DNA of 34,865 nucleotides from Candidatus Sungiibacteriota bacterium (GTDB taxonomy: Bacteria > Patescibacteriota > Minisyncoccia > Sungbacterales > HO2-52-23), in assembly GCA_016186095.1 (NCBI GenBank), contig JACPMG010000026.1, positions 1 through 34,865 of the forward strand. Reading direction: 5' to 3'. The notes beneath the pieces are model-generated. The model worked only from the letters and a program-made list of their open reading frames with translations, was not told where the DNA came from and did no database searches. This document shows, one piece after another, positions 4,216 through 25,611 of this stretch. The translations under genes and the position numbers were made by a program. How positions within the stretch are numbered: the stretch's first letter is position 1; each line of letters begins with the position of its first letter.

Positions 4216-4250
4216 AAACAAACGCCCCCAGCAAGTGGGGGCGTTTGTTT
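4216..4250 (-). terminator. Long GC-rich hairpin, probable rpoBC terminator
   Basis: AAACAAACGCCCCC-loop-GGGGGCGTTTGTTT, 14-bp stem just after the rpoC stop. Confidence 0.75.
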
Positions 4251-17535: not shown

Positions 17536-17712
17536 ATGCACTGTATTGACTGCGGAGGCTTCTTGACCGAGAAAGTTTCAGGCGGTTGCGGCGGTATGGG
17601 TGCCGTGTACGAATGTGACAACTGCGGGGCAAAGTGGCTACAGGAAAGTGGCGGTTTCGTGTCCTCACCGATTTCGCTCAAGCGATTGCCAAAGCACTAC
17701 CCTACCACATAG
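17536..17712 (+). CDS. Small zinc-ribbon-like protein, 58 aa (absent from ORF track)
   Basis: SD AGGGAGG upstream of ATG; MHCIDCGGFLTEKVSGGCGGMGAVYECDNCGAKWLQESGG..., two CxxC pairs. Confidence 0.7.
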   Translation: MHCIDCGGFLTEKVSGGCGGMGAVYECDNCGAKWLQESGGFVSSPISLKRLPKHYPTT

Positions 17713-18308
17713 AATCTCCACGGTTTATCTTTCCATTTCCCTGCATAATCTACTCCTATTCTCTTTCCTCGCTTAATTTGGCGGGGACTTATTTTTATGC
17801 CGTAATCCTCCCGCCCAACTTTGTTGGGCGAGGCTCGCTCACTCGGAGAGTGAGCGGCAATCCACAAACCTGTTTTTTTATTCGCGTGTTTGGCATTGAA
17901 TCTTTTATCAATTTTAAAATACTTGCACACTTTACCGGGCCCTCTTACTTCATCTATTCTAATGTTCTTGAGAATATTAGAATGGGAATCTGATGTTACT
18001 ATGGAGCGAATAAGCACTGCCGCCGGATAATGTTCTTTTTCTGTAACAATATTCAAGCAGTAGTACATTCCATAAATTAAATATACATACCAGTAACCCG
18101 GCTTGCCAAACATTACCTCTGTGCGTTTTGTCCTACCGCGCGAGGCGTGAGACGCTTTGTCTTTTGGTCCGATATATGCTTCAACTTCCGTAATTATGCC
18201 AAAGATCTTCCTATGGCCGATTTTTCGCACCAAAAATTTGCCCAAGAGCTCTTGGGCAACTTGAAGAGTCGGGCGATTGAAAAAATCTTTTGATAAGAGT
18301 TTATGCAA
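17697..18308 (-). CDS. DNA-3-methyladenine glycosylase (AAG/MPG family)
   Basis: LSKDFFNRPTLQVAQELLGKFLVRK, EVEAYIGPKDKASHASRGRTKRTEVMFGKPGYWYVYLIYGMYYCLNIVTE. Confidence 0.95.
   Translation of the reverse strand: MHKLLSKDFFNRPTLQVAQELLGKFLVRKIGHRKIFGIITEVEAYIGPKDKASHASRGRTKRTEVMFGKPGYWYVYLIYGMYYCLNIVTEKEHYPAAVLIRSIVTSDSHSNILKNIRIDEVRGPGKVCKYFKIDKRFNAKHANKKTGLWIAAHSPSERASPNKVGREDYGIKISPRQIKRGKRIGVDYAGKWKDKPWRFYVVG
17812..17856. repeat. Tandem-hairpin palindromic element inside the glycosylase ORF
   Basis: CGCCCAAC-TTT-GTTGGGCG followed by CGCTCACTC-GGA-GAGTGAGCG. Confidence 0.85.
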
Positions 18309-19396: not shown

Positions 19397-20728
19397 TCAT
19401 CCTATATTCTTCCAATGACCCTCCTGTCTCACTAGTAGTCCTTCGGCTCGCTCCGGATGCGCCATGATCTCCTTCACCGCTTTCTCCATCCGCATGAACT
19501 GGCTTCCTTTGACTAAAATTAAATCACCGGGCTGGATTATGGGGTCTAAAGCCCGACCGGCCGATTCGGAATCATCAAATTTAAAAACTTGATTATGCTT
19601 GACTCCTCGAGTTAATGCCTCATCGGCAATAAATTTTGCTCGAGGGCCTACGCAAAAGAACAAATCGACAAATCCGGCAGCTTGATCCCCTACTGCGCGA
19701 TGCGCCTGCTCCGAAAACCTCCCTATTTCAAGCATATCACCAAGCACGGCAATTTTTCTTCTTCCGGGAAGGGCTTTTAGCGTATCCAAAGCCGCGCGCA
19801 TGGCTTCGGGGGCAGCATTATATGTGTCGTCAAGGATAAAAGAATTTTTTATACCTTTTAACAATCTTAATCTGCCCGGCGGCGGTGCATAATTCTTTAT
19901 GGCCTCGGAAATCTCCACTAAATTTAATCCAAGAGTGATACCTACGGCTGCAGCCGCGGCTGCGGCAATGGCTTGCGGTTCTCCGAAAGCATCGTGCAGA
20001 TGAAACGGGACCAGATGTCCTTTGTGCTCAATTTTGAATGAAATGCCTTCCGGTATGTCGCCCAACTCCGCGTCTTTGGAAATTGATAATTGATAATTGA
20101 TAATTTTTATCTCCGCATGCTCTTCCCGCCCAGAGCGAGACTCGCCAAAGGCGGCAAATCCAAAAGTGAGAACTTTGCTTTTGGTCTTATCCTTCATATC
20201 ATACACCGCATAATCGTCGTGATTTAGGATCGCTTGGCCGTCCGCGGGCACGGCCTGTACAAGTTTTGCCTTTTCTTTGATTATCTCCTCCGGATCTTTG
20301 AAAAATTCCACATGCACCGGAATATCGCCAACCGCAGTAACCACGGCTATATTTGGCTTGGCGATGGAAAGAAGGTAATCCATGTCGCCCGGATGATCAA
20401 CGCCATACTCCAGCACCAGTATCTGCGGATACTGGTTGCGGACAGACGCGGACAAACGCAAAATAACGCGGACAAACGCGGACAGCCATTTAAAAATATT
20501 TTTGCCATAATGTGAAATTCCCAAAATCGTGAGGGGCAAGCCGATTTCGTTATTATAATTTTTCTCCGAAGTCCGCACTCTGTATTTCTTTTTGAGCACG
20601 CTAAAAATCGCCTCTCTAGTTGAGGTCTTTCCCACCGATCCGGTAATGCCGATAATAGTCGGCCTATATTTCCGGATCGCGGCTCTTGCCAAAACCGCAA
20701 GAATTTTTTGAAGTATTGACTTTTTCAT
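19397..20728 (-). CDS. murF: UDP-N-acetylmuramoyl-tripeptide--D-alanyl-D-alanine ligase (MurF-type Mur ligase)
   Basis: GITGSVGKTSTREAIFSVL, ILDDTYNAAPEAMRAALDTL, VLGDMLEIG, VKGSQFMRMEKAVKEIM. Start set at MKKSILQK. Confidence 0.93.
   Translation of the reverse strand: MKKSILQKILAVLARAAIRKYRPTIIGITGSVGKTSTREAIFSVLKKKYRVRTSEKNYNNEIGLPLTILGISHYGKNIFKWLSAFVRVILRLSASVRNQYPQILVLEYGVDHPGDMDYLLSIAKPNIAVVTAVGDIPVHVEFFKDPEEIIKEKAKLVQAVPADGQAILNHDDYAVYDMKDKTKSKVLTFGFAAFGESRSGREEHAEIKIINYQLSISKDAELGDIPEGISFKIEHKGHLVPFHLHDAFGEPQAIAAAAAAAVGITLGLNLVEISEAIKNYAPPPGRLRLLKGIKNSFILDDTYNAAPEAMRAALDTLKALPGRRKIAVLGDMLEIGRFSEQAHRAVGDQAAGFVDLFFCVGPRAKFIADEALTRGVKHNQVFKFDDSESAGRALDPIIQPGDLILVKGSQFMRMEKAVKEIMAHPERAEGLLVRQEGHWKNIG
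20081..20108. repeat. Heptamer repeat (AATTGAT x3 plus partial) inside murF
   Basis: AATTGAT AATTGAT AATTGAT AATTTTT; encodes INYQLSI in the murF frame. Confidence 0.85.
20125..20154. repeat. Second CCGCC..GGCGAG..CTCGCTC palindromic element, inside murF
   Basis: Minus strand GCCGCCTTTGGCGAGTCTCGCTCTGGGCGGG, matching the core of the 17812-17856 element. Confidence 0.55.
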
Positions 20729-20744
20729 AATGGCGTCCCGCAAC

Positions 20745-21074
20745 GTCATCCTGAGGCAATAGCCGAAGGATCTAAATCCTTAAATTCTGGATTGACGCTT
20801 CGAATCAAATCTATCTTTTTCTTTCGTGTCCACCCCTTAATTTTCTTTTCAGCCGTGATGGCTTCTCTGGGGCTAGAGAAGACTTCATAATATACAAGTT
20901 GCGTCACGTTATACTTGGAAGTGAACCCTGGGATTAATTTTTGTTTATGCTGAGATATGCGACGCGTGAGATCGTTTGTAACACCGGTGTAAAAAAACGG
21001 TGTCACGTTTGTTGGTCGCAATATAAACATAATAGTATCTTAACATATAGATCCTTCGCTCCGCTCAGGATGAC
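20745..21074. mobile_element. Putative GIY-YIG cassette bounded by inverted repeats
   Basis: GTCATCCTGAGGCAATAGCCGAAGGATCTA at left; TAGATCCTTCGCTCCGCTCAGGATGAC at right, inverted. Confidence 0.5.
20746..21030 (-). CDS. GIY-YIG nuclease family protein
   Basis: FFYTGVTNDLTRRISQHKQ, TSKYNVTQLVYYEVFSSPREAITAEKKIKGWTRKKKIDLI. Confidence 0.92.
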   Translation of the reverse strand: MFILRPTNVTPFFYTGVTNDLTRRISQHKQKLIPGFTSKYNVTQLVYYEVFSSPREAITAEKKIKGWTRKKKIDLIRSVNPEFKDLDPSAIASG

Positions 21075-25585: not shown

Positions 25586-25611
25586 CAATACGCCACCCGG
25601 GTGGCGTATTG
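25586..25611. repeat. 26-nt perfect palindrome
   Basis: CAATACGCCACCCGGGTGGCGTATTG is its own reverse complement. Confidence 0.9.

Follow-up and report, generated by a model that had tools for sequence, protein, structure and literature searches.

A 47-nt double hairpin in the DNA-3-methyladenine glycosylase (AAG) gene of a Candidatus Sungiibacteriota genome is probably an in-frame insertion of a non-autonomous mobile palindromic element that is dispersed in Patescibacteria. We demonstrated the family itself, its framework, the pairing of its stems, a bias toward in-frame copies, the addition of one base with the unit, and filled and empty sites in related genomes. A search of the open-access literature (subscription papers were outside it) found no paper linking Patescibacteria with palindromic elements, and this element family in Patescibacteria genes is apparently undescribed. 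The window, that is, the whole stretch of DNA analyzed, is 34,865 nucleotides long, and its relevant features are collected in Table 1.

Table 1. Positions in the window of the glycosylase element, its parts, the second copy and the host genes
Feature	Position	Strand	Description and basis
Double-hairpin element, CCGC-hp1-GCGAGGCTCGC-hp2-GCGG	17811..17857	.	47 nt; sequence, framework match, empty site in relatives
Hairpin 1, CGCCCAAC-TTT-GTTGGGCG	17812..17830	.	Perfect 8-bp stem, loop TTT
Hairpin 2, CGCTCACTC-GGA-GAGTGAGCG	17836..17856	.	Perfect 9-bp stem, loop GGA
Core GCGAGGCTCGC, linking both hairpins	17828..17838	.	6 exact genome copies; conserved across phylum
Left flanking C	17810..17810	.	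C at -1 in 66/68 copies; AAG empty sites in relatives
Right flanking C	17858..17858	.	C at +1 in 65/68 copies; AAG empty sites in relatives
Host gene, DNA-3-methyladenine glycosylase (AAG/MPG family)	17697..18308	-	203 aa; Pfam PF02245, TIGR00567, AlphaFold match to human AAG
Second copy, shorter and slightly degenerate	20126..20154	.	29 nt, core GCGAGACTCGC, 10-aa insert in Mur ligase gene; empty in G009 orthologue
Mur ligase ORF hosting the second copy	19397..20779	-	Stop-to-stop extent; Pfam Mur_ligase_M and Mur_ligase_C; aligned with G009

The element in the glycosylase gene

Direct reading of the 47-nt unit (17811-17857) gave CCGCCCAACTTTGTTGGGCG-AG-GCTCGCTCACTCGGAGAGTGAGCGG and bore out the claim of an earlier, sequence-only reading that two adjacent perfect hairpins with loops TTT and GGA lie here. 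The fold of the strand was more stable than 200 of 200 dinucleotide shuffles (z = -4.2), and no Rfam family matched at the site of the element. The host ORF matched Pfam Pur_DNA_glyco with an E value of 6.7e-56.

The sequence-only reading had further proposed that a palindromic insert of 16 codons (48 nt) splits LWI from ED in frame, and it had called for an alignment with relatives. In this alignment, the 16 residues AAHSPSERASPNKVGR (about residues 152–167) fell exactly between LWI and ED and occurred in no other sequence, with the site empty in 29 same-class relatives. Homologues carrying the segment without palindromic DNA would have refuted the proposal, and none was found among those examined. 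The sole homologue with an insert at this place, in the distant relative G062 (L073), has a double hairpin there as well, although not the same one, and the recurrence at this LWI codon suggests that the target is a preferred one.

At the DNA level, the insert of 48 nt consists of the 47-nt unit and one extra flanking C, which makes exactly 16 codons. The empty site in relatives reads TGGATTGARGAY, with one G, whereas this genome reads TGGATTG[CCGC...GCGG]GAGGAT, with two, indicating that the insertion comprised the unit plus one base. Only one of the two flanking C residues is thus present in the empty site.

An alignment of 45 AAG sequences contained no invariant or nearly invariant columns within the insert, and the invariant residues of the family are intact in the insert-bearing protein. 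A structural look at the insert had also been called for. The AlphaFold model (mean pLDDT 89.5) matches human AAG and places the insert, with pLDDT of ∼50, on a well folded core; on the strength of this prediction, we read the insert as a flexible surface loop. Translation of the insert is inferred from the sequence alone.

Two other AAG genes contain unlike inserts. That of another Patescibacterium, G019 (L006 on contig C9, the same as record L111), has another perfect hairpin, CCCCGTTAGATAAAATATCTAACGGGG, in a 22-residue in-frame insert at about residue 31, so that more than one palindrome family may invade the AAG gene. That of G066 (L014) has an insert of ∼38 residues directly after LWIED, encoded by partly palindromic DNA without the framework.

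Copies, framework and distribution

The sequence-only reading would also have failed had the genome held no further copies. A search with the exact 45-nt sequence returned the glycosylase copy alone, because copies have the framework and not the stem sequence in common; a hairpin search with mismatches and a core search revealed the others. The frame CCGC-hairpin-GCGAGGCTCGC-hairpin-GCGG, with a C on either side, occurs at least 8 times in this genome. Exact GCGAGGCTCGC cores number 6 in 680 kb, compared with ∼0.3 expected from a simple base count, and there are two degenerate cores in addition. The copies lie in the genes for AAG, a Mur ligase, ProRS, SerRS and a NUDIX hydrolase, in an ORF with a weak HTH-like match and in an unknown ORF, and one copy, on contig C7, has no clear host gene around it. 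In SerRS, comparison with PDB 2dq0 placed a 14-aa insert inside the motif AWMPG^QG; the ProRS and NUDIX alignments were too unclean to define the exact ends of the inserts. The window also contains two perfect inverted repeats unrelated to the framework, one of 15 bp with a 5-nt loop (4216-4250) and one of 13 bp with no loop (25586-25611).

Filled and empty sites were compared among relatives. The Mur ligase gene offered reciprocal sites: the 10-residue copy of the window genome (G000) is absent from G009, and a 16-residue copy at another place in the G009 gene faces an empty site in this genome. Between G009 and G012, which belong to the same genus, 20 stretches of G012 contigs yielded clean filled/empty differences of 14, 15, 15, and 17 aa, with G009 filled each time, one of the 15-aa differences being in a topoisomerase-like protein that is 86% identical. 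Given the many substitutions that separate these two genomes, it is not possible to tell, site by site, whether one gained a copy or the other precisely lost it. The comparison of filled and empty sites shows dispersal; actual transposition, for which such comparison is the only evidence, was not shown.

We collected 68 copies from the genomes searched, one of which (L058) is probably a chance match. Units are about 30–63 nt long. The unit is preceded by C in 66 copies and followed by C in 65, and A is almost absent ahead of the left C, although the search required none of this; nearly all copies end in CCCGC and GCGGC. The framework is symmetric around the core base, its two short hairpin half-units facing each other as an inverted pair. 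The linker and the ends are constant, whereas stem sequence is nearly free past the first five pairs, and stems vary among copies in sequence and in length from 3 to 13 bp. Pairing was nevertheless strict: 75 of 97 hairpins of at least 15 nt were perfect, compared with 30.5 on average and at most 43 when arms were swapped within length classes (2000 rounds), and only 4 of about 350 stem pairs were G-T. Pairing this strictly Watson-Crick is more in keeping with constraint on the DNA, or its copying, than with selection on an RNA.

Some arrangements of copies stood out. Three 30-nt copies run head to tail in one G009 ORF (L078:1501-1589) and encode PPGASLAKGG three times. At L054, L059, and L068, copies adjoin, or overlap by 4–6 nt, the predicted 3' ends of tRNA genes (Gly, Gly, and Asp, respectively). 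A repeat of CCCGC follows the element in these cases, which gives the appearance that insertion targeted the CCCGC at the tRNA end.

Lengths were multiples of three in 43/47 copies within ORFs, compared with 9/21 copies outside ORFs (Fisher p = 4e-5). Classing by ORFs is biased toward in-frame copies; few of the 21 others are possible broken genes. The fixed framework has stop codons in none of the six frames, so that a copy of such a length can be read through as a loop. Each of the three reading phases and either orientation is represented among the copies, indicating that the peptide is not what is conserved.

The framework CCGC-N-GCGAGSCTCGC-N-GCGG was found in 21 of 93 relatives, compared with 3 for a reversed control pattern. 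With the flanking C required, it was found in 17 of 287 genomes from across the phylum (85 matches), and the reversed pattern in none. Within the family to which the window belongs, the spread is patchy, with 25 copies in G009 and none in its genus-mate G012 (72% complete). Of 42 genomes from other phyla, one matched, a Melainabacteria metagenome bin (G407:C187:5095-5141), in which the copy is possibly on a stray contaminating contig or the result of transfer. Nearly all of the genomes compared are metagenome assemblies.

Two further ideas were abandoned. For viral spread, 68 framework matches were found in viral contigs, but nearly all were chance matches in GC-rich phages and only two had paired hairpins; the one convincing copy, L231:10726-10768 on a contig classed as viral, is downstream of a tRNA-Gly gene. 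A second insert family, guessed from AKGYGG-like peptides in L020 and L031, was not upheld, the motif being not clearly above the control.

Origin of the copies

The copies might be REP/BIME-type elements moved by RAYT, an IS200/IS605-like Y1 transposase recognizing single-stranded hairpins, with the half-units forming a head-to-head REP dimer. REPs resemble the copies in size range and in their paired, inverted half-units, and they too occur patchily and in frame inside genes (PMC3733652), and Y1 genes are common (58/93 genomes). However, no GTAG or CGTC tag is present at either end of the copies, and Y1 genes are not associated with copies (14/21 genomes with and 44/72 without, p = 0.8); this genome has three Y1 genes, and the contigs that carry them bear no copy. 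In G009, with its 25 copies, no Y1 gene was detected in an assembly that is 97% complete. We therefore regard this origin as unlikely, and a Y1/RAYT transposase was dropped as the mobilizer for want of co-occurrence with copies. Another idea is that copies do not move between sites and are produced locally, through template switching by the polymerase or through duplication primed by a hairpin. Template switching is known to yield perfect arms of variable sequence (PMC8604942), and just one base is duplicated at the site, but the 19-base frame and the flanking C recur across the phylum, and local slippage would have no reason to keep making them; we consider such an origin quite improbable.

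It is harder still to credit that the hairpin matters as RNA, whether spliced out, skipped by ribosomes as in Magnusiomyces mitochondria, or regulating the mRNA. The RNA hairpin is stable, and inserts skipped by ribosomes are known in yeast mitochondria (PMC5009743). If the insert were removed from RNA, however, lengths that are multiples of three without in-frame stops would be needless in genes, and the near absence of G-U pairs, unlike in structures selected as RNA, the occurrence of both orientations and the lack of an Rfam match at the site also speak against this. As for chance palindromes in what is simply a variable glycosylase loop, loop length does vary in some relatives (such as L014), but the framework is conserved at other places in this genome and in other genomes of the phylum, and the controls are clean; this contradicts a chance origin and leaves it virtually no credence.

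For the favored mobile palindromic element, we propose that the unit is two short hairpins in the fixed frame CCGC-hairpin-GCGAGGCTCGC-hairpin-GCGG, preceded by (Y)C and followed by C, and that each insertion would add the unit and one C. Copies with a length that is a multiple of three would be translated as a short loop rich in Gly, Arg, Ala, Ser, and Pro, and selection would retain those in tolerant surface loops. We infer that the hairpins may be recognized as DNA, in single-stranded or cruciform state, by an enzyme acting in trans, none of which has been identified. Template switching between the arms, with one arm re-copied from the other, is likewise inferred; it would let stems drift in sequence and length yet remain perfectly paired. 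In coding DNA, template switching is known to make arms homogeneous and to turn loops around (PMC8604942). A bolder version, which we offer only as speculation and hold to be doubtful, is that this is phylum-wide mobile DNA without its own transposase, whose stems are written anew at each insertion, with either the target or template switching as the source, so that inheritance would be limited to the frame and the capacity for folding. Such DNA would have steadily supplied ultra-small bacteria with new peptide loops in their core proteins.

Relation to known elements and significance

Rickettsia palindromic elements (RPEs), to which the sequence-only reading had likened the insert, are in-frame palindromic repeats in unrelated genes, translated and patchy among species, with a unit of about 150 bp (PMC10969869); RPE-4 and RPE-6 carry a CGTC tag (PMC3733652). 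The likeness held as an analogy, the Patescibacteria copies being palindromic, intragenic and inserted in frame into genes with empty homologues. It did not extend to membership: the unit is about 30–63 nt and lacks the CGTC tag, and where RPEs have a conserved peptide, the Patescibacteria element is read in any of three phases and either orientation with variable stems. REP/BIME elements (GTAG family, RAYT) and CGTC repeats are short hairpins, often in inverted pairs and some of them intragenic, that are thought to be non-autonomous mobile DNA (PMC3733652). The inverted pair of hairpin half-units is shared with REP/BIME; the stems, nearly free beyond the first five pairs between a fixed linker and ends, set our element apart from both groups, and neither a terminal GTAG tetranucleotide nor co-occurrence with Y1 genes was observed. 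Since the GTAG or CGTC tag, the unit of ∼150 bp and the Y1 association are not met, we did not file the element as a member of REP/BIME or RPE.

Fungal mitochondrial double-hairpin elements and the GC clusters of yeast mtDNA are mobile, as judged by comparison, and occur in genes and spacers; the fungal double-hairpin elements stay in transcripts and are missing from structurally important parts of genes (PMC2800124). Two tandem hairpins, with copies in genes and spacers, are found in our element as well, although theirs is an organelle genome and ours a bacterial one. In Magnusiomyces mitochondria, short bypassing blocks are inserted in many protein genes (PMC5009743); those blocks disrupt the frame and are skipped, whereas the Patescibacteria copies leave the frame intact and are apparently translated. 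By analogy, the element would work like REP/BIME and RPE while looking most like the fungal mitochondrial double-hairpin elements.

Patescibacteria have streamlined genomes and often depend on a partner, yet this family adds peptides to their core enzymes, among them Ser- and Pro-tRNA synthetases, a topoisomerase-like protein, a Mur ligase and a DNA repair enzyme; judged by motif, Met- and Ile-tRNA synthetases are probably hosts as well. For annotators, the warning is that such inserts are DNA-borne and are not conserved domains. As a compact, searchable system, the family lends itself to asking by what means such tiny palindromes move when no transposase is dedicated to them, and how frequently protein loops are contributed by mobile DNA.
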